Of a DNA stretch of 64,000 nucleotides, positions 5,745 to 39,872 are shown piece after piece. The notes beneath the pieces were generated by a model, which had not been told where the DNA came from, did not search any database, and saw only the letters and a program-made list of their open reading frames with translations. The stretch is from Thermoanaerobacterium xylanolyticum LX-11. GTDB taxonomy: Bacteria > Bacillota > Thermoanaerobacteria > Thermoanaerobacterales > Thermoanaerobacteraceae. The number at the start of each line of letters is the position of its first letter. Within the stretch, counting starts at the first letter, position 1. A program made the position numbers and the translations under genes. The stretch spans positions 445,001 through 509,000 of the forward strand of contig NC_015555.1 of assembly GCF_000189775.2 (NCBI RefSeq), in the 5' to 3' direction.

Positions 5745-8700
5745 GTGTTTTTCTTGGAGTTGACTACTTTTTTACACATGCTAATTGGAGCTTTGTTTAC
5801 GCTTTTTTCACTTATGATTTATGAGAAATTGAAGAATAAAAGTAATTATTATGAAGAAGCTAATTTACACGATATTTTATTAAATCACGATGAGCTTAAA
5901 AAACACGCCCAAGAATTAGCACAAAACCATTACATAATGAGAGATACTAAACTAAATTACATGCTTATACCTCGCATGAATAAAAGCTATAATTACATAA
6001 AATTCGTATACAAAAATATCAACTTGGCAGAAAGGACGCAGTCTATATCGCAAGATGCTGAATGGCTTTTAGACAATTTTTACATAATCGAAGAACAAGT
6101 TAAAGAAATCAGAAAGAGCCTATCAAAAGGCTATTATTCAGGGCTTCCTGGACTTAAGAATAGCATATTGAAAGGTTATCCGAGAGTGTACGCTATTGCC
6201 ATGGAATTAGTGTCCCATACGGACGGGAAAATTGATGAAGACACAATTATAGATTTCATCAATGCCTATCAATCAAAGTCGCTTTTGTCAAGCGGTGAAT
6301 TATGGGCTCTTGGACTTATGATAAAAATTGCTTTAATAGAAAACATAAAAAAGAGCTCTGAGAAAATAACTATAACGCAGAAGCAGTGGAGCAAAGCGGA
6401 TGAAGTAGCAAATATAATATTTTCGAACAAAAATATGACATTTGATGATATTAAAAAATTAATACATGACAAAGTTATGACTATTGGGAAGATTCCTACG
6501 TCTTTTTTTGAAAGGTTGCTTCAAAGGATTAGGATGGAAGGCGATGATTCGACGGTAATCGTACAGTACATCGATAGGATTCTTCAAGAGTATGATACAA
6601 ATATTGCAGACATTGTTGAATTAGATCATCAGATATTAGCCGCAAGACAAGTTTCAATTGGCAATGCAATAACAAGCCTTAAATATGTGTCAACGTTGGA
6701 TTGGTCTCAAATATTTGAGAAGCTTAGCAATGTAGAACAGATTTTGAGGCAAGACCCTGATGGTACGTATGAAATGATGGATTTTGAATCGAGAGATTAT
6801 TACAGACATCAAATTGAGGAAATAGCCAAGAGGTATAAAACATCGGAGACATTTGTTGCAAGAAAAGCCTTGGAGTGTGCGAGGGAAGTTTTAAATGACA
6901 ATAATAAACCTGAATACATAAATCATGTAGGATTTTATATAATAGGCAAAGGCAGAAGCATACTGGAAAGCAAGATAGGGCATAAGAAAAATTCTGTAAA
7001 AGTAATGCGTGTCGTAAAAAGCCATATAGCCATCTTTTATATAGCGTCTATAGTTGCTTTGACCATTTTTGCGTCTGCTGCTTTATGGGCTTTGTTAATA
7101 TTTAATGGTTTGGCAGCTATATATGCATTTATTCTGGCAGCTATTTCGATAATTCCTATAAGCGAATTTGTAATACAGGCAGTAAACTGGGCGATAATAC
7201 ACATTAAAAGACCTACTATAATACCTAAAATTGAATTAAAAAATGGAATACCTAAAGAAGCTGCCACAATGGTTATAGTCCCTGTACTTTTGACAAGTGT
7301 AAAGAGAGTTAAAGAGCTTTTAGCACAATTAGAAATAACATATATTTCAAATAAAGAGGACAATCTTTATTTTGCTATCGTAGGCGATTTTAAAGACACA
7401 AACAAGGAGAAATTGGAGGATGACGAAGAAATAGTGAATACGGCTCTTGGTGGAATAAAAGAGCTTAATGAAAAATACGGTGAGGGGAAAGACATATTTT
7501 TCTATTTTCACAGAAAACGCGTATATTGTCAGACACAAAATGCTTACATGGGCTGGGAGAGAAAAAGAGGTGCTATAGTAGAGTTTAATGAACTATTAAT
7601 GGGTTCAAATGATACCAGTTTCTACGTAAAAAGTGCTAATGTTGAAGAACTACCCAGAATAAAATATGTCATAACACTTGATGCGGATACAAATTTGATC
7701 ATGGATACTGCAAAACGGCTTATTGGGACAATGATGCACCCGTTAAACAAGGCAGTTGTTGATAGTGAGAAAAATGTAGTTGTTGAAGGATATGGGCTTT
7801 TGCAACCAAGGATAGGAGTGGATATTTTGTCTTCGTCAGCCACCGTGTTTTCTTCTATTTTTGCTGGCAATGGTGGCATTGACCCATACACAACTGCTGT
7901 ATCTGATGTTTACCAAGATCTATTTGGAGAAGGTATTTTTACTGGAAAAGGTATTTACGATGTGGAAGTATTTAGAACTATACTTAAAGATTTAATACCT
8001 GATAATTCCATATTAAGCCACGACCTTTTAGAAGGTTCTTTTATAAGGGCAGGACTTGTGACTGATATACTGCTTATTGATGGTTTTCCGTCTAAATACA
8101 ACTCATATATGATGAGAATGCACAGGTGGGTAAGAGGTGATTGGCAGCTTTTGCCGTATCTTTCAAGAAGAATTAAGACGAGACAGGGTAACTATATGGA
8201 AAATCCTCTTTCGATTATTTCAAAATGGAAGATAATAGATAACCTAAGGAGAAGCCTTGTTGCTCCATTTGCTTTGGCTTTGCTTCTTTTAAGTAACCTT
8301 GTGCCTTATAAAAGCTTTGTTATGTATGGGGTAGTGATATTAGCTTTATTTGAACCATTTATAGCAGCAGCAATTGATGCAGTGCTGGAAAAATCAAAAG
8401 AGATGAGTAACCACAGCATTTTGCTTGCAAATAGCTTGAAAAACACGTTTTACGCAAGCTTATTGCAGTTCGCATTTCTGCCTTATCAAGGCTATTTAAT
8501 GATAGATGCAGTAGTTAGAACTATCTACAGAGTTTATGTATCAAGAAAAAATCTATTAGAGTGGGTTACCGCGGCTGATATGGAAAGGCAACTTAAAAAT
8601 GATTTTATCAGTTTCTTAAAAAGAATGTTGGTATCAATTCCCATTGGGGCTATTTTAATCTTGGTGAGCATGTACTTTAAACGTGATATGCTACCATACT

Positions 8701-11700
8701 CAATTTTAATTTCTTTAATATGGTTTGCATCGCCGTACATTGCTTATCGGATAAGCAGTCCTATTGTTGAACGTGAGTTTATGATGGAAGAAAGTGATAT
8801 TAAAGAGCTAAGAAAACTGTCCAGGAAAATTTGGAGGTATTTTGAGGATTTTGTGACTGAAAATGATAATTACTTGCCTCCTGATAATTTTCAGTTAGAT
8901 CCGTATGCGGGTATTGCCAGAAGGACTTCGCCTACCAACATAGGCTTATACTTGACTTCTACAATATCGGCAAGAGACTTTGGATATATCACTACTTCAG
9001 AAATGGTTGATAGAATAGATAAAACGGTCAGCACTATTGAAAAGATGGAGAAATGGCATGGACATCTTTACAACTGGTACAAAACAGACGACTTAGAGCC
9101 ATTGAAGCCATACTATATTTCTACGGTAGATAGTGGAAATCTTGTTGGGTATATGATAGCGCTTAAGGAAGGCCTTAAAAAAGTTCCAGACATGCCATTG
9201 ACTGAAAAATTGTCAGCAGGTTTATCAGACTTAATTGAGATCGTAAATGACGAATTAAAAAGTAAAAAGATAAAATATGAGATGCTTGAAGGAGATTACA
9301 CCATTGAAGACTGGCATAGAAGCTTGAATCAACTTAGAGACGGCTTAAGCAGTATCAAATTTAATGATGATGATGGATGGTATATGAAAATTGTTGAAAC
9401 CATTGATTCTGATATCAAAGAATTGGATGAGCTTGTGCCATTTTATAATTATGACGAATATGAACAAATGTTTGAGTTAAACAAAGATACTACGCTAAAT
9501 AATTTGAAGGCAATGTATGAAAAAATTTTAGAAATGCCGTCATCTAATAGAGAAAAGTTTATAAAGCCTTACGAAAATGTTAAGCATTTAATAGAAAAAG
9601 TAGAAGATTTGATAATTAGATTAAATATTCTTATAGAGAAAACAGAGTTTAGGCCATTGTTTGATGAGAAAAGGCAGCTTTTTTCAATAGGTTACAATAT
9701 AGAAGATGAAAAATTGACTAAATCGTATTATGATTTATTTGCCTCTGAAGCAAGACAAGCCAGTTTTATAGCTATAGCAAAGAAGGAAGTTGATGCAAAA
9801 CATTGGTTTAGAATGGGGAGAATGGTGACAGGAGAAAATGCTCACAGAGGGTTAATTTCGTGGTCTGGTACAATGTTTGAATATTTTATGCCGCTTTTGA
9901 TAATGAAAAATTTTAAAAATACTATTTTGGATCAGACGTACAAATTTGTCGTAATGATGCAAAAGAAGTATGCAAAAAAATACAGTATTCCATGGGGAAT
10001 ATCGGAGTCAGGCTTTTACTCATTTGATATTAAACTTAATTATCAGTACAAAGCTTTTGGTGTTCCTTGGCTTGGGCTTAAGAGGGGACTATCTCGAGAT
10101 GTTGTTATAGCGCCTTATGGTGCGATTCTATCCCTCAGGGTAGATCCAAAATCTGTTGTTGAAAATATTAAAAGATTGAAAGACCTTGGAGTAGAAGGTA
10201 AGTATGGGCTTTATGAGGCTGTCGACTTTACGCCGGAAAGAATTCCTTATGGGAAAAAGTATGCTATAGTCAAAAGTTTCATGTCTCACCATTTAGGCAT
10301 GAGCATGCTTGCACTAAACAATTTTATAAATAAAAACGTGATGCAGGAAAGATTTCATTCAGATCCATATATAAAATCTGTTGAAATATTGTTGCAGGAG
10401 AAAGTACCAAATGGCCCAATGATTCTTAGAGAAGAAGTAGAGGCACAAAAGGAATTTGAAGAGCAAAAGAAAGAAGAAGTTAAGGCCGTAAGGGTTGTAG
10501 AAGAGATAGATGATATCCTTCCGCAGGTGCATATTTTATCAAACGGTGATTATTCTGTTGTTTTGACAGATAGGGGAACAGGTTACAGTAAGAAGGAAGG
10601 AATAAACATAACCAGGTGGAAAAACAGTTTAGATGAAATTCATGGGACGTTTATATTCGTCCAGAATGTAAACTCAAATACCACTTGGTCTACGACTTAT
10701 GCTCCATTTTTTGCGAAAGATGAAAAATATAAAGTTGTATTTAAGCAAGATATGGCTAAATTCATTAAAAAAGTCGGGAATATCGATACAGAAACGGAAG
10801 TCATTGTATCACCGGAAGACGATGTTGAAATAAGGCGTGTGACGTTAAAAAATCACAGCGAACATGATAGAGTGCTGGAAGTTACAAGCTATTTCGAACC
10901 AGTCTTAAGCGACATTAATGCAGACATTGCGCATCCTGCTTTTAACAAGCTGTTTATCAAAACAGAGATATTGTTTGACAGCGACATGATAGTTGCAAAC
11001 AGAAGACCCAGAGATTTAAAAAAGTCATATTTGTGGGTTGCTCATGCTGTATACGTAGATGGTGGCGAGACGGTAGGCGATACTCAGTTTGAGACAGACA
11101 GGGCTAAATTCATTGGCAGAGGGCGGACATTAAGGAATCCTGTTGCTTTAGAGACAGATAGACCATTGTCAAATTCAGATGGCTCTGTTTTGGACCCTAT
11201 CATGTCATTGAGAAAGAGGATTAAGTTAGATCCAAATGAAACGGTAAAAGTTGTATACATTACTTCTGTGGCAGAGTCAAAGGCAGAAGCAGTGAAATTG
11301 GCGAACAAGTACAAAAATGGTAGTGCGACGGAAAGAGCATTTGAAATGTCAGTATCCAGAGGTAAAGTTGAATTAGATTACTTGAATCTTAAATCAGACG
11401 AGTTAGGGCTTTTTCAAAAGATGCTTCCACATATAGTATTTTCAAGCCCCGTCAGGATAGCAAAAAAAGATACAATATTAAAAAATCAAAAAGGTCAATC
11501 TGGACTGTGGGCATACGGAATATCCGGAGATATACCGATAGTTCTTTTAGAAATATGCAAAAAAGAGGAATTGCCTGTATTAAAAAAGCTTCTTAAGGCT
11601 CATGAATATTGGAGAATGAAAGGGCTATACGTAGATTTAGTGATTTTAAACAATGACAAAGGTGGATATATTGATGCATTGGGCGATAGAATCAAAGACG

Positions 11701-14378
11701 TAATAAATGGAAGTTTTGCATATAACATAATGGGGCAGTTTGGTGGAGTGTTTCTGATAAATAGAAGTAGTTTAAAAGAGGAAGATTACATTTTGTTAAA
11801 TACAGTTGCAAAATTATCTCTTACTGCTGATATGCCTATTGAGAAGCAACTTGAATATGATGATATTGAGAAAAATAAAAAAGCCAAATTGCTTCATATA
11901 GATGAAAACAATAAGAAAAAAACATATCCAGTTCCGCTTAGAGAGAATCTGCAATTGCATTACAGCAATGGGTATGGTGGATTTTCTTTAGATGGACATA
12001 AATACGTTATAAATTTAGATGATGACAAGGTAACGCCTATGCCATGGATAAATGTTGTATCAAACTATAAATTTGGATTTCAAGTTTCAGAATCAGGAAG
12101 CGGTTTTTCATGGGCAGAAAATAGCAGAGAATATAAAATCACCCCATGGTCAAATGATCCTGTTTTGGACGAAGGCGGGGAGATTCTGTACTTAAGAGAT
12201 GACTTTACAGGTGAATATTGGACGATAACACCAAAGCCACTAAGGGATAAGGGACAATATGTGATTGAGCATGGATTCGGATATTCTTTATTTAAACATG
12301 GATGTTCAGGGATTAACCATGAGATGTTAGAGTTTGTGCCTATGAACGATACCGTTAAAATATCGCTTGTAAAGTTAAAAAACGTAAGTGGCGAGAAAAG
12401 AAGGTTGAGTTTGTATTACTTTATAAAACCTGTATTAGGCGTTTCAGAAAGCATAACATCGCCATATGTGGTTACAGAGATGAATGAAGAAATCGATGGG
12501 CTCTTAATAAGAAATGTGTACAATGAAGATTTTAAGGACAGGATTTCCTTTATAAGTTCATCTGTCAAAGTTCAATCATATACAGGAAACCTGTCGGAAT
12601 TTCTGGGATCTGATTTTGACACTAAACGACCTGAAGCTTTAAAAATGGAATCTCTATCGAATAATGTAGGAATTGGTTTAAGTCCATGTGCCGCGATTCA
12701 AGTTGTTGTCGAATTAGAAGAAAATGAAGAAAAAGAGCTGTCATTTTTGTTGGGAACTGGAATGTCTTTAGATGATGTCAGACGGATTATGAGTTATTAC
12801 AAGAATATCAATAACGTAAAAGAGGCATTGAATTATGTCAATACGTTCTGGAACAACTTCGTCGGCACAATAAATGTAGCGACACCTGACAAATCTTTCG
12901 ATTTGCTTTTGAATGGTTGGCTATTGTATCAGACCATATCATGTAGGATTTGGGCTCGGTCTGCATTTTATCAGTCAGGTGGTGCATACGGATTTAGAGA
13001 TCAACTACAAGATACTATGAATGTTGTGTACGTTGCACCAGAGCTTACGAGAGCACAAATATTAAACGCTTGCGCACATCAGTTTAAAGAAGGTGACGTA
13101 CTCCATTGGTGGCATCCCGTGACCGACAAAGGAATACGCACGAAATACTCAGATGACCTTTTATGGTTGCCGTATGCTGTTGCGGATTATGTCTCCGTAA
13201 CAGATGATACAAAAATATTAGATATACAAATTCCGTTTTTAAATGAAGAACCATTAAAAGATGACGAAGATGAAAGGTATGGCAGACCTAAGGTATCAGA
13301 TGAAACTGCCACAGTTTATGAGCACTGCATAAGGGCTATAGAACATTCACTGAAATTTGGGCAGCATGGAATACCGCTGATGGGATCTGGAGACTGGAAC
13401 GATGGCATGAATATGGTAGGCAATAAAGGAAAAGGTGAAAGTGTATGGCTTGGTTGGTTTATGTACGTAACACTTAAAAAATTCTCTAAGATATGCATTG
13501 AGAAAAATGACCATGAAAGGTGTGAAAAATATGAAGAAGTTGCCAATGACATAATAAAATCAATTGAAGAGTACGGCTGGGATGGAAGCTGGTATAGAAG
13601 AGCGTACTTTGATAATGGAATTCCGCTTGGCTCAAGCCAGAATAATGAGTGCAAAATAGATTCTATAGCGCAATCATGGGCTGCAATCTCAGGTGCAGCA
13701 AAATGGGATAGAGTGAAAGAAGCACTTGATGCACTTGAAAATTACTTGGTGGACTACGACAATGCAATAATTAAGCTTCTTTCGCCGCCATTTGATAAAG
13801 GGGATTTGAATCCTGGCTATATAAAAGGGTATGTGCCTGGCGTAAGAGAAAATGGAGGTCAATACACCCACGCTGCAATATGGGCTATAATGGCTTACGC
13901 AATGATTGGTGATGGCGACAAGGCTTATAGGCTTTACTCTATGATAAATCCTATAAACCATACAAGGACACTTATAGAAAATTCCAGGTATAAAGTAGAG
14001 CCTTATGTCATGGCAGCCGATGTATATGCCGTGGAGCCGAATACAGGCAGAGGAGGTTGGACGTGGTATACTGGTTCCTCAGGATGGATGTACAGAGTTG
14101 GTATTGAGCATATTTTAGGGTTTAAAAAAGAAGGAGATGCAATTGTCATCAATCCATGCGTTCCAAAAGATTGGGCGAAGTATAAAATAGAGTACATGTA
14201 CAAAAATGACACGAAGTATATAATCGAAGTGGAAAACCCCGAAATGGTCAACAGAGGCGTACGTGAAGTTTCTGTAGATGGGAATGTAGTTGATGATAAC
14301 AAATTCATTCTAAAAGATGATGGGAAGATACATCATGTTTTTGTGGTCATGGGAACGAGAGTATCTGTCAAAGCATAA
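5745..14378 (+). CDS. Cyclic beta-1,2-glucan synthase (GT84 + cyclisation domain + GH94)
   Basis: This 2877-residue membrane enzyme of the NdvB/ChvB/Cgs family makes cyclic beta-1,2-glucan from UDP-glucose. A membrane anchor (about 5-25) is followed by a soluble helical part and TM helices near 425-485. The GT84 glycosyltransferase has a DxD at D646-A-D648 and an (R/Q)xxRW-type motif HRWVRGDWQ at 793-801; further TM helices lie near 835-1005. A glucoamylase-like/GH189 cyclisation region is around 1030-1600 (RMGRMVTGENAHRGLISWSG near 1350). The C-terminal GH94 phosphorylase-like half has the general acid in GSGDWNDGMN (D2550). GTG 5745 is very close to AAAGGAG; TTG 5754 may be the true start. 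It has no glycan-export or modification neighbour. Confidence 0.93.
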   Translation: MFFLELTTFLHMLIGALFTLFSLMIYEKLKNKSNYYEEANLHDILLNHDELKKHAQELAQNHYIMRDTKLNYMLIPRMNKSYNYIKFVYKNINLAERTQSISQDAEWLLDNFYIIEEQVKEIRKSLSKGYYSGLPGLKNSILKGYPRVYAIAMELVSHTDGKIDEDTIIDFINAYQSKSLLSSGELWALGLMIKIALIENIKKSSEKITITQKQWSKADEVANIIFSNKNMTFDDIKKLIHDKVMTIGKIPTSFFERLLQRIRMEGDDSTVIVQYIDRILQEYDTNIADIVELDHQILAARQVSIGNAITSLKYVSTLDWSQIFEKLSNVEQILRQDPDGTYEMMDFESRDYYRHQIEEIAKRYKTSETFVARKALECAREVLNDNNKPEYINHVGFYIIGKGRSILESKIGHKKNSVKVMRVVKSHIAIFYIASIVALTIFASAALWALLIFNGLAAIYAFILAAISIIPISEFVIQAVNWAIIHIKRPTIIPKIELKNGIPKEAATMVIVPVLLTSVKRVKELLAQLEITYISNKEDNLYFAIVGDFKDTNKEKLEDDEEIVNTALGGIKELNEKYGEGKDIFFYFHRKRVYCQTQNAYMGWERKRGAIVEFNELLMGSNDTSFYVKSANVEELPRIKYVITLDADTNLIMDTAKRLIGTMMHPLNKAVVDSEKNVVVEGYGLLQPRIGVDILSSSATVFSSIFAGNGGIDPYTTAVSDVYQDLFGEGIFTGKGIYDVEVFRTILKDLIPDNSILSHDLLEGSFIRAGLVTDILLIDGFPSKYNSYMMRMHRWVRGDWQLLPYLSRRIKTRQGNYMENPLSIISKWKIIDNLRRSLVAPFALALLLLSNLVPYKSFVMYGVVILALFEPFIAAAIDAVLEKSKEMSNHSILLANSLKNTFYASLLQFAFLPYQGYLMIDAVVRTIYRVYVSRKNLLEWVTAADMERQLKNDFISFLKRMLVSIPIGAILILVSMYFKRDMLPYSILISLIWFASPYIAYRISSPIVEREFMMEESDIKELRKLSRKIWRYFEDFVTENDNYLPPDNFQLDPYAGIARRTSPTNIGLYLTSTISARDFGYITTSEMVDRIDKTVSTIEKMEKWHGHLYNWYKTDDLEPLKPYYISTVDSGNLVGYMIALKEGLKKVPDMPLTEKLSAGLSDLIEIVNDELKSKKIKYEMLEGDYTIEDWHRSLNQLRDGLSSIKFNDDDGWYMKIVETIDSDIKELDELVPFYNYDEYEQMFELNKDTTLNNLKAMYEKILEMPSSNREKFIKPYENVKHLIEKVEDLIIRLNILIEKTEFRPLFDEKRQLFSIGYNIEDEKLTKSYYDLFASEARQASFIAIAKKEVDAKHWFRMGRMVTGENAHRGLISWSGTMFEYFMPLLIMKNFKNTILDQTYKFVVMMQKKYAKKYSIPWGISESGFYSFDIKLNYQYKAFGVPWLGLKRGLSRDVVIAPYGAILSLRVDPKSVVENIKRLKDLGVEGKYGLYEAVDFTPERIPYGKKYAIVKSFMSHHLGMSMLALNNFINKNVMQERFHSDPYIKSVEILLQEKVPNGPMILREEVEAQKEFEEQKKEEVKAVRVVEEIDDILPQVHILSNGDYSVVLTDRGTGYSKKEGINITRWKNSLDEIHGTFIFVQNVNSNTTWSTTYAPFFAKDEKYKVVFKQDMAKFIKKVGNIDTETEVIVSPEDDVEIRRVTLKNHSEHDRVLEVTSYFEPVLSDINADIAHPAFNKLFIKTEILFDSDMIVANRRPRDLKKSYLWVAHAVYVDGGETVGDTQFETDRAKFIGRGRTLRNPVALETDRPLSNSDGSVLDPIMSLRKRIKLDPNETVKVVYITSVAESKAEAVKLANKYKNGSATERAFEMSVSRGKVELDYLNLKSDELGLFQKMLPHIVFSSPVRIAKKDTILKNQKGQSGLWAYGISGDIPIVLLEICKKEELPVLKKLLKAHEYWRMKGLYVDLVILNNDKGGYIDALGDRIKDVINGSFAYNIMGQFGGVFLINRSSLKEEDYILLNTVAKLSLTADMPIEKQLEYDDIEKNKKAKLLHIDENNKKKTYPVPLRENLQLHYSNGYGGFSLDGHKYVINLDDDKVTPMPWINVVSNYKFGFQVSESGSGFSWAENSREYKITPWSNDPVLDEGGEILYLRDDFTGEYWTITPKPLRDKGQYVIEHGFGYSLFKHGCSGINHEMLEFVPMNDTVKISLVKLKNVSGEKRRLSLYYFIKPVLGVSESITSPYVVTEMNEEIDGLLIRNVYNEDFKDRISFISSSVKVQSYTGNLSEFLGSDFDTKRPEALKMESLSNNVGIGLSPCAAIQVVVELEENEEKELSFLLGTGMSLDDVRRIMSYYKNINNVKEALNYVNTFWNNFVGTINVATPDKSFDLLLNGWLLYQTISCRIWARSAFYQSGGAYGFRDQLQDTMNVVYVAPELTRAQILNACAHQFKEGDVLHWWHPVTDKGIRTKYSDDLLWLPYAVADYVSVTDDTKILDIQIPFLNEEPLKDDEDERYGRPKVSDETATVYEHCIRAIEHSLKFGQHGIPLMGSGDWNDGMNMVGNKGKGESVWLGWFMYVTLKKFSKICIEKNDHERCEKYEEVANDIIKSIEEYGWDGSWYRRAYFDNGIPLGSSQNNECKIDSIAQSWAAISGAAKWDRVKEALDALENYLVDYDNAIIKLLSPPFDKGDLNPGYIKGYVPGVRENGGQYTHAAIWAIMAYAMIGDGDKAYRLYSMINPINHTRTLIENSRYKVEPYVMAADVYAVEPNTGRGGWTWYTGSSGWMYRVGIEHILGFKKEGDAIVINPCVPKDWAKYKIEYMYKNDTKYIIEVENPEMVNRGVREVSVDGNVVDDNKFILKDDGKIHHVFVVMGTRVSVKA

Positions 14379-34114: not shown

Positions 34115-34131
34115 TAAAAAATTAATGTCTA

Positions 34132-34198
34132 AAACATTGCAGATGAACCTAAAAATTGATATAGTTAATATTGTGGAATGATCTGCAATGTTTTTATT
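34132..34198 (+). terminator. Long-loop intrinsic terminator
   Basis: The 13-bp arms AAACATTGCAGAT (34132-34144) and ATCTGCAATGTTT (34181-34193) enclose a 36-nt loop and are followed by TTATTTTTG. Confidence 0.75.
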
Positions 34199-34219: not shown

Positions 34220-34489
34220 ATGTCAAACAAATACATATCTGCTTCTGAGATAAATCAATACTTGTATTGCCCATATCAATGGTACTATGAAAAAAAGTAC
34301 GGACATAAATATATAAATGAATTGAGAGAAAAAAACGGCATAAGGTATGAAGATAGCAACTTTAAAAAAGGCATTGAGTATCATGAGAAATACTATAGAG
34401 ATATTGTAAAGTTAAAATACAAGAAAATAGCTATAGCCATATTGATTCTCTTGGCTTTTGTAGCTATTGTAATAGGGTTTTTGAAATGA
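34220..34489 (+). CDS. Membrane-anchored Cas4-like N-terminal fragment (split PD-(D/E)XK protein, part 1)
   Basis: This 89-residue protein looks like the first quarter of a Cas4/RecB-type nuclease: ISASEINQYLYCPYQWYYE with Cys17, the position of the first Fe-S cysteine in Cas4, then FKKGIEYHEKYYR, and a single TM helix at about 69-88. The catalytic core is missing here but is found in the next gene, which starts at an overlapping ATGA and also begins with a TM helix. Reading frames differ by one. It could be a natural two-subunit split or a frameshifted single gene; the clean ATGA overlap favours a real split. Confidence 0.7.
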   Translation: MSNKYISASEINQYLYCPYQWYYEKKYGHKYINELREKNGIRYEDSNFKKGIEYHEKYYRDIVKLKYKKIAIAILILLAFVAIVIGFLK

Positions 34490-35058
34490 TAGTGTTAAAT
34501 TTTGTCTTTACACTTTTAATACTTTACGTCATCTTGAAGGAGATTGCAGAAAAAAGACCTCCTTATAAGGAGATGAAAAGGACAATCGGTTTCAAAAGAG
34601 GAAAGCTTATATACATAGATAAGCAGGAAGAGGTAAAAAAGGACGGCGTTATGTACAGCAAGCTTTTAAAATCTTCAAAATATGGCATAAGTGGAAAGCC
34701 AGATTATATTTACGATGTTGGGAATGAATTGATACCGTTGGAGCTAAAAAGTTCAAAAGCCGAAGGACATTCCCCATTTTTGAAAGATGTGATGCAATTG
34801 ACTGCTTATTTTTTGATAATAGAAGAAGAATTTGGTAAAAAAGTAAGACGGGGTAGAATCGTCTATCAAAATACGATGTTTGAAGTATATAATACGAAAG
34901 GTCTTAGAAGAGAACTTATTAAAATTATAAAAGAGATGAGACTCTTAGAGGAAGAAAAGTTTTTCCCTGATGTGGAAGGGGATTTTATAAAGTGCAGATT
35001 TTGCCCATGTAGAGACACTGTGTGCGAAATATATAAAGGAAGCAAAGTAAAAATCTGA
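34486..35058 (+). CDS. Membrane-anchored Cas4-like nuclease core (split PD-(D/E)XK protein, part 2)
   Basis: This 190-residue protein starts with a TM helix (3-19), followed by a PD-(D/E)XK core: D73 in ISGKPDYIY, E86 and K88 in PLELKSSK, and Q104 in QLTAY. The C-terminus carries a cysteine cluster at 170, 173, 175 and 180 (CRFCPCRDTVC), where Cas4 proteins hold three of four Fe-S ligands. The fourth would come from Cys17 of the upstream partner. No CRISPR array or other cas gene is nearby. The function is unknown; DNA end processing at the membrane is an inference only. Confidence 0.8.
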   Translation: MIVLNFVFTLLILYVILKEIAEKRPPYKEMKRTIGFKRGKLIYIDKQEEVKKDGVMYSKLLKSSKYGISGKPDYIYDVGNELIPLELKSSKAEGHSPFLKDVMQLTAYFLIIEEEFGKKVRRGRIVYQNTMFEVYNTKGLRRELIKIIKEMRLLEEEKFFPDVEGDFIKCRFCPCRDTVCEIYKGSKVKI

Positions 35059-38859: not shown

Positions 38860-38883
38860 CAAGAAATAAAAGGAGGTGCGATG

Positions 38884-39201
38884 ATGATTATAGCTTTTGC
38901 ATCAAAAAATCATTTGGGACTTAACAGCGATATAGGAAGTGATATTGTAAATTCTGAATACATTACAGTTGCAGAGGTAGAAGATGGTAAGTTAAAGAAA
39001 GTAAAAAATGTAGAAAATATATTTTACAATGATCAAAAATTGAATGCAAAAGATTTTGTGGACTTTATTTCAAAGACAAATGCTGAGATTTTTGTTGTGA
39101 TGAACATAAGTGAAGAAATAAAAGCAGAACTTTTAAAGAACAACATATCAGTAAAGCTTGTAACATTAGGGCGAATAGCAGATATATTAAAGTCATTTTA
39201 A
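38884..39201 (+). CDS. Small NifX/NifB-C-like (dinitrogenase iron-molybdenum cofactor-type) protein
   Basis: This 105-residue protein begins MIIAFASKNHLGLNSDIGSD and continues ITVAEVEDGKLKKVKNVENIF, a layout matching the short NifX/NafY-type fold, including the conserved loss-of-function-free glycine region after the first strand. No cysteines are present. ATG 38884 is 7 nt after AGGAGG; ATG 38881 is possible. It follows an ArsR operator and precedes a ferredoxin. The family assignment is tentative; in non-diazotrophs such proteins are linked to iron-sulfur or molybdenum chemistry. Confidence 0.55.
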   Translation: MIIAFASKNHLGLNSDIGSDIVNSEYITVAEVEDGKLKKVKNVENIFYNDQKLNAKDFVDFISKTNAEIFVVMNISEEIKAELLKNNISVKLVTLGRIADILKSF

Positions 39202-39234
39202 AGATTGAAAAAAGATTGAAAGGGGGTGAAAGAC

Positions 39235-39441
39235 ATGGCTAAAAATTGGTATCCGATTATTGACCACGATAAATGCATACAGTGCTACCAGTGTGTTAAT
39301 TTCTGCACACACGATGTTTATACAATAGGCGACGATGGTTTTCCGCTTGTAATAAATCCTGACAACTGTGTAGAATTCTGCAGAGGTTGCCAGAAGATAT
39401 GCGATAACGATGCTATATCTTATTTTGGCGACAATAAATAA
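39235..39441 (+). CDS. 2[4Fe-4S] ferredoxin-like protein
   Basis: This 68-residue protein has two cluster motifs, CIQCYQCVNFC near 14-24 and CVEFCRGCQKIC near 47-58; the second has CxxxC in place of CxxC. It is likely a soluble electron carrier or small subunit. ATG 39235 is used because the GTG at 39226 lies within the ribosome binding site AAGGGGGTG. It sits between the NifX-like and HdrA-N-like genes, suggesting a shared redox complex. Confidence 0.9.
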   Translation: MAKNWYPIIDHDKCIQCYQCVNFCTHDVYTIGDDGFPLVINPDNCVEFCRGCQKICDNDAISYFGDNK

Positions 39442-39506
39442 GCTTAATTTACAATCTCGTTTAAAGATTTTAAAAAATTATAAATTTAATTGGAGGGAAT
39501 AATAAA

Positions 39507-39872
39507 ATGAGCAAAAAGGGATTGCTTTTATGTGTATGCCAAGGCACATGTCCTTCATTTCAGGAGATGGACACATTCGAAGTCTTAAACACATTGAGAA
39601 GAGAAAATATATTCGAATGGGTAGGATTGCATCCACAACTTTGCGCAGAGGATGGCGACAGGTATTTGCGTGAACTTTTGAAAGGTGCAGATATAGATGA
39701 GTTATACGTTGCTGCATGTGATCCAGTAATGCAGAGAAAAATGTACAGGGATGCTTTTGATGCAGTAGGATTCGACAGAGAAAAGCATATCGGTATAGAA
39801 ATAAGAAATATGAATACAGAGCAAGTAATAAATGAGATTAAAAAGGCTGTTAAAGAAAAAGAACAAGGTTAA
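39507..39872 (+). CDS. Stand-alone HdrA N-terminal-domain-like protein
   Basis: This 121-residue protein resembles the N-terminal domain of heterodisulfide reductase subunit A: LLLCVCQGTCPSF at the start, GLHPQLCAEDGDRYLRELL, and DELYVAACDPVMQRKMYRDAF, followed by IGIEIRNM. In HdrA these segments precede the FAD domain, which is absent here. Conserved cysteines are at the CVCQGTC, QLC and AACDP positions. A role in ferredoxin-linked thiol or disulfide chemistry is inferred from the family and neighbours. A GGAGGGAAT ribosome binding site precedes ATG 39507. Confidence 0.75.
   Translation: MSKKGLLLCVCQGTCPSFQEMDTFEVLNTLRRENIFEWVGLHPQLCAEDGDRYLRELLKGADIDELYVAACDPVMQRKMYRDAFDAVGFDREKHIGIEIRNMNTEQVINEIKKAVKEKEQG

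Follow-up and report, generated by a model that had tools for sequence, protein, structure and literature searches.

The window analysed here is a stretch of 64,000 nucleotides from Thermoanaerobacterium xylanolyticum LX-11 (NC_015555.1), and the parts of the gene pair described below all lie on its plus strand. ORF1 (34220-34489) codes for a protein of 89 amino acids, which contains an N-terminal Cas4 piece and ends in one predicted transmembrane (TM) helix (residues ~70-89, 34427-34486). The Cas4 piece carries Cys17 (codon 34268-34270), a predicted N-terminal Fe-S ligand whose counterpart in the alignment with canonical Cas4 is the N-terminal Cys, and a GxxxH motif with His55 (34382-34384), a predicted active-site metal ligand. 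ORF2 (34486-35058) codes for 190 amino acids and starts with a predicted TM helix (residues ~2-23), which is followed by a PD-(D/E)XK nuclease core and three C-terminal cluster cysteines. The alignment places the catalytic residues D73, E86 and K88 (GKPD...ExK) at 34702-34749, Q104-x3-Y108 of the QhxxY motif (described in PMC4176176) at 34795-34809 and C170-x2-C173-x6-C180, the predicted C-terminal Fe-S ligands, at 34993-35025. The ORF1 stop and the ORF2 start overlap in an ATGA (34486-34489), which can be read directly from the DNA. An AGGG (34474-34477) resembles a Shine-Dalgarno site for ORF2; this assignment is based on the sequence and on anti-SD pairing across the ORF2 starts of the family. 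Both gene coordinates and the overlap are exactly those of an earlier note that was made from the DNA letters alone, and the Cys17 and TM helix it had placed in ORF1 and the TM helix, D73, E86/K88 and Q104 it had placed in ORF2 are present. The best 19-residue hydropathy mean is 3.3 for the C-terminal segment of ORF1 and 2.2 for the N-terminal segment of ORF2.

A terminator-like hairpin with a U tract (34131-34194; z -4.87) is located between the upstream gene and ORF1 and ends about 25 nt 5′ of the ORF1 start. It is kept in Thermoanaerobacterium, and the promoter of the gene pair may be located in its loop. Thermoanaerobacter has another hairpin at this place, followed by a TATAAT box. No Rfam family was found near the pair.

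ORF2 scores 109 bits against TIGR00372 (cut-off 65) and 31.6 bits against Pfam Cas_Cas4 (cut-off 22.7); the strong TIGR00372 score may come in part from similar family members in the seed of the model. ORF1 alone is weak against Cas4 profiles (23 bits with TIGR00372; hhalign probability 40%), and the match covers only model positions 1-58, which is the N-terminal end; the PADLOC Cas4 models behave alike. Comparison of the ORF1 sequence with the PDB gave chance-level matches only, and a fold search with the ORF1 model found no PDB match. Taken together, the likeness of the pair to Cas4 is judged to be more than chance, because ORF2 matches Cas4 models, ORF1 matches their N-terminal end and both are conserved across two orders. 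Modelled with AlphaFold2 (mean pLDDT 81), ORF2 shows a TM helix at residues 2-23 and a nuclease core with pLDDT >88, while the Cys region is poorly defined (45-54), as would be expected if a partner is missing. Its best structural match is Cas4 7mi4 (Z 12.7, 3.3 Å, 121 residues), followed by MGME1; in VIA comparisons the Z score is 12.7 for 7mi4 and 9.9 for 8d3l. ORF1 was modelled as a single helix from residue 45 to 88 (pLDDT 72, pTM 0.41). The helix with His55 may therefore continue directly into the membrane, although confidence in this model is low.

In an alignment of 98 pairs, which includes one natural fusion described below, C17, G51 and H55 of ORF1 (G51 and H55 forming the GxxxH motif) and G70, K71, P72, D73, E86, K88, Q104, Y108, Y127, C170, C173 and C180 of ORF2 are invariant (98/98). 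The earlier note had proposed that Fe-S ligands are divided between the two polypeptides, with a Cys170/173/175/180 cluster in ORF2, and had named a lack of Cys17 conservation as grounds for dropping the idea. The division of the predicted ligands is borne out, Cys17 included. From the cluster, C170, C173 and C180 remain, and C175 drops out: it is replaced in 8 of the 98 relatives. The conserved set of predicted ligands is, by this alignment, C17 together with C170/C173/C180, and C175 is not a conserved ligand. His55, which was overlooked at first, corresponds to the metal-binding His of Cas4, so the predicted catalytic metal site is divided as well, with H55 in ORF1 and D73/E86/K88/Q104 in ORF2. 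His62, Asp99 and Glu113 bind the metal in SSO0001, and Cys32 together with Cys188, Cys191 and Cys197 binds the cluster; the reference active-site residue is His62/His94 (PMC4176176). The distance from the His to the Asp is 37 residues in SSO0001 and 107 in ORF1 and ORF2 counted end to end, and the extra length is mainly made up of the two TM segments.

Cas4 nucleases can be recognised by a PD-(D/E)XK core that carries the D, ExK and QhxxY motifs, four cysteines (one N-terminal, three C-terminal), a His of the active site placed after the N-terminal Cys and before the Asp, and the presence of all motifs in one polypeptide; biochemically they are marked by a bound Fe-S cluster and 5′-3′ exonuclease activity on single-stranded DNA. 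The core is found complete in ORF2 and the His is contributed by H55 of ORF1, while the four cysteines are reached only when both proteins are counted; this holds for all 98 pairs. The motifs are not united in one polypeptide, as detailed below, and the two biochemical features are only predicted for the pair. Since the whole core is located in ORF2, it is conceivable that ORF2 alone is a functional membrane nuclease and ORF1 a distinct membrane protein with an accessory or regulatory task, with no cluster shared. One genome (L173) indeed has ORF2 without a recognisable ORF1, and Pcal_0546 and SSO1391 still cleave after loss of cluster cysteines (PMC4176176). However, only ORF1 supplies the fourth Cys as well as the His of the active site, both of them invariant and in the canonical Cas4 order; SSO1391 depends on the equivalent His, its H80A variant being inactive (PMC4176176); and the two proteins are fused in one relative. 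We consider an independent ORF2 nuclease unlikely, and an architecture of two membrane-anchored subunits very likely, in the absence of biochemistry and of a model of the complex.

The earlier note had suggested a search for the same gene pair in other genomes, and had reasoned that relatives with one continuous ORF would expose the arrangement as a frameshift. Among the 101 loci examined in Thermoanaerobacterales and Lachnospirales, 97 have two intact separate genes, two have a frameshifted ORF1, one lacks ORF1 and one is a fusion; a continuous ORF is thus not the rule. ORF2 is present in 21 of 24 Thermoanaerobacterales genomes, each time directly preceded by ORF1. Nineteen of these loci belong to Thermoanaerobacteraceae, the family of the window, and overlap by 4 nt without exception (-4); the two in another family overlap by 16 and 25 nt. 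Named genomes with matches in the family are Thermoanaerobacterium, Thermoanaerobacter and Caldanaerobacter. In a Defluviitaleaceae MAG, which NCBI taxonomy assigns to Lachnospirales, the two genes are 15 nt apart. Throughout that order, ORF2 was found in 80 of 295 genomes (E < 1e-20), and the split is kept in 78; the remaining two are the fusion (L194) and L173, which has rlmD downstream and no yhaM upstream. In two draft genomes (L005, at 1233-1504, and L015) ORF1 is broken by a frameshift and ORF2 is intact, which is either a real loss or an assembly error. A sparse sample of 398 genomes from the phylum of the window gave strong ORF2 matches only within Thermoanaerobacterales. A second sparse sample, of 381 genomes from the class to which the Defluviitaleaceae MAG belongs, yielded no more than the MAG itself and one genome of its order that was already known to match.

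The junction itself could be explained by a single polypeptide, if programmed -1 frameshifting at the ATGA joins ORF1 and ORF2 or if an assembly or sequencing frameshift merely makes them look separate. The constant -4 nt spacing in Thermoanaerobacteraceae, the TTTAAAA or TTTTAAA present at some junctions and the true fusion in L194 would fit such a product. Against it, a slippery heptamer is absent at the junction of the window and at several others, and the split recurs in about 100 genomes. Across the loci, the spacing ranges from -65 to +54 nt and falls into all three frames (57/35/5 of 97), and L127 has about 0.2-0.3 kb between its two genes; a frameshifted single product is therefore excluded. 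In addition, ORF2 starts show Shine-Dalgarno signals: the mean anti-SD pairing energy is -5.16 kcal/mol at the starts taken together and -1.93 kcal/mol at internal ATGs (p ~1e-20). The ORF2 start codons were picked by rule (nearest ATG first), and some overlaps may be wrong by a few codons. Frameshifting or recoding was rejected on the basis of the three-frame spacing, the L127 gap and the anti-SD pairing, and we regard a single polypeptide as highly improbable. As far as sequence can tell, ORF1 and ORF2 are real genes and translation of ORF2 initiates independently.

The fusion in L194 (minus strand) is a single ORF of 277 codons in which both TM segments are joined as a hairpin. The earlier note had pictured the pair as a single Cas4 whose junction is a TM hairpin, and this is literally realised in the fused protein. 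It sits inside the clade of split proteins, so the fusion looks secondary, although its branch is long. In the tree, the split proteins are set apart from single-chain Cas4, and the separation stays fully supported when the comparison is limited to columns common to canonical Cas4, which is consistent with a single origin of the split. The pair could also be a decayed relic of a CRISPR-associated cas4, and the interrupted ORF1 of the two draft genomes could be read in this way. This is refuted by the conservation of catalytic and cluster residues across distant lineages, and the separate position of the pair in the tree also speaks against it, as do the dN/dS values, which for pairs with measurable dS are 0.03-0.14 for ORF1 and 0.03-0.06 for ORF2. 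Such values indicate strong purifying selection on both genes, and a relic can be practically dismissed.

Both proteins show a pronounced charge bias around their hydrophobic segments. In ORF1, the 15 residues before the TM helix contain on average 5.2 Lys and Arg and those after it 0.9, a direction seen in 96 of 97 proteins; the ORF1 helix of the window likewise is K/R-rich on its N-terminal side and has almost none on the other. In ORF2 the bias is reversed (0.4 before, 4.9 after; 83 of 84 proteins). According to the positive-inside rule, both nuclease parts are therefore predicted to be cytoplasmic. Seven Lachnospirales genomes in two groups (L133, L140 and L172; L186, L187, L195 and L197) have an ORF2 without and an ORF1 with a TM segment. 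The TM hairpin is thus not obligatory, and ORF1 seems to be the essential anchor and that of ORF2 dispensable.

The chromosomal neighbours of the pair are constant within each order. In Lachnospirales, the genes are closely packed in the order yhaM-ORF1-ORF2-rlmD: a YhaM-family 3′-5′ exonuclease is encoded directly upstream in 69 of 77 pairs, usually at a distance of -4 to +18 nt, and rlmD is located downstream in 63 of 77. The YhaM-family protein has OB and HD domains and scores 179 bits with the NCBIfam YhaM model, which is below the equivalog cut-off. In Thermoanaerobacterales the upstream gene varies by genus and a pdaA-type deacetylase gene is located downstream. The yhaM link is absent from this order: a search of the genome of the window with a partial YhaM query found nothing, though without a positive control. 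The earlier note's observation that no CRISPR is nearby was correct. No CRISPR-like direct repeats are present at 24000-45000 of the window and no cas1 or cas2 gene lies beside the pair; the Cas1 genes of this genome are found at 2.387 and 2.471 Mb, next to two other, ordinary Cas4 genes, while the pair is located at 0.479 Mb, which is 1.9-2.0 Mb away in coordinates. A CRISPR link, in which the pair would be encoded with cas1/cas2 near an array, was rejected because of these distant Cas1-Cas4 loci and the lack of repeats.

A membrane Cas4 might alternatively handle incoming DNA, by processing DNA taken up in transformation or by breaking down the DNA of phages or plasmids at the membrane; the earlier note had considered competence or phage DNA entry. 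The predicted position of the nuclease parts at the cytoplasmic membrane face would suit this function, and natural competence has been reported in Thermoanaerobacterium and Thermoanaerobacter. However, no competence, mobile-element or defence genes are among the recurring neighbours, the constant partners being yhaM and rlmD, and the suggested role is unsupported. PADLOC matches of the pair are to Cas4-like nuclease models only, and a related-locus search found no pair in IMG/VR viral contigs, which does not prove its absence. This function therefore seems rather unlikely to us. A solo-Cas4 is defined by its location outside a CRISPR or mobile-element context and by largely vertical inheritance; the pair meets this definition, because its neighbours are constant per order, the groups of the tree follow the order and no viral contig was found.

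Cas4 is regarded as a soluble single-chain nuclease. Solo-Cas4 proteins (COG1468 / PF01930, DUF83) have the same nuclease core, four cysteines and His/D/E/K/QxxxY residues as the two halves of the pair counted together, and are likewise encoded outside CRISPR loci; the pair differs in that it consists of two polypeptides with a TM helix each, between which cluster ligands and active site are divided. CAS-Cas4 proteins (type I-C and Geobacter Cas4-Cas1; 8d3l, 7mi4), SSO0001 (4ic1) and Pcal_0546 (4r5q) resemble the ORF2 core in fold and have the pattern of active-site and staple residues in common with the pair but, unlike it, are single soluble chains that are encoded with cas1/cas2 or alone. 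No hydrophobic TM segments were found in the single-chain Cas4 proteins sampled (L054-L075). AddB is part of a helicase complex. In the AddB-type iron staple nucleases, one N-terminal and three C-terminal cysteines brace a RecB-like nuclease, as predicted for the pair (AddB, PMC3466216). The MGME1/Exo5/Dna2 group comprises structural neighbours of the ORF2 model; in these and in the AddB type the cluster is held within one chain and there is no split.

The main text of Hudaiberdiev et al. (2017; PMC5704561) reports a monophyletic Thermoanaerobacteriales branch of solo-Cas4, which very probably corresponds to ORF2, as we infer. That main text contains neither the word split nor a membrane Cas4, and its only use of membrane is in an unrelated gene name. 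Among open-licence papers, no relevant report of a split, membrane or Lachnospirales Cas4 was found. The solo-Cas4 lineage is known, and as far as these papers show its split and membrane anchoring are new: in about a quarter of the sampled Lachnospirales genomes and in most Thermoanaerobacteraceae, Cas4 is cut in two, with both halves anchored and every catalytic and cluster residue kept. Current annotation names ORF2 Cas4 and likely misses ORF1.

The best overall explanation, which we consider probable, is that ORF1 and ORF2 pair as the subunits of a single solo, non-CRISPR Cas4-family nuclease, a heteromer of two proteins in the membrane. The two TM helices would run in opposite orientations, with their outer ends in contact on the outside of the membrane and the nuclease parts both in the cytoplasm. 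ORF1 would provide the active-site His as well as the N-terminal cysteine that belongs to the iron-sulfur staple, and ORF2 the PD-(D/E)XK core and the other three cysteines. Because active site and cluster are each incomplete in either half, activity would be expected only from the membrane heteromer, which would act on the ends of nucleic acids at the inner membrane face. The sequences show two genes and their conservation, the division of the residues, the TM segments with their charge bias, the independent start of ORF2 and a natural fusion; the physical pairing of the proteins, the assembly in trans of a 4Fe-4S cluster, nuclease activity towards DNA ends and the role in the cell are inferred. 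The operon with yhaM speaks only weakly for end-trimming or turnover rather than for defence or the uptake of DNA. A housekeeping function in trimming or degrading nucleic-acid ends at this membrane face, in Lachnospirales together with the co-operonic YhaM, is no more than a tentative inference. It is also imaginable, but rather doubtful, that the pair is a membrane-assembled nuclease switch, in which metal site and 4Fe-4S cluster are completed only when the oppositely oriented anchored proteins meet; activity would then be tied to assembly, and possibly to redox state, at a particular place in the membrane, for instance a complex with YhaM that handles DNA. For solo-Cas4, the function of which is unknown, the pair supplies a definite partner and location and, in Lachnospirales, YhaM as a constant operon partner, and it is a clear case in which to study Fe-S assembly across a subunit interface.

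Two other regions of the window were noted. An ORF of 2877 amino acids at 5745-14378 contains GH94 and glucoamylase domains and resembles cyclic beta-glucan synthase. A small cluster at 38881-39872 follows genes for an ArsR regulator and a transporter-like protein; its members are a protein with a dinitrogenase-cofactor domain, one that resembles ferredoxin and an ORF that has no Pfam match.
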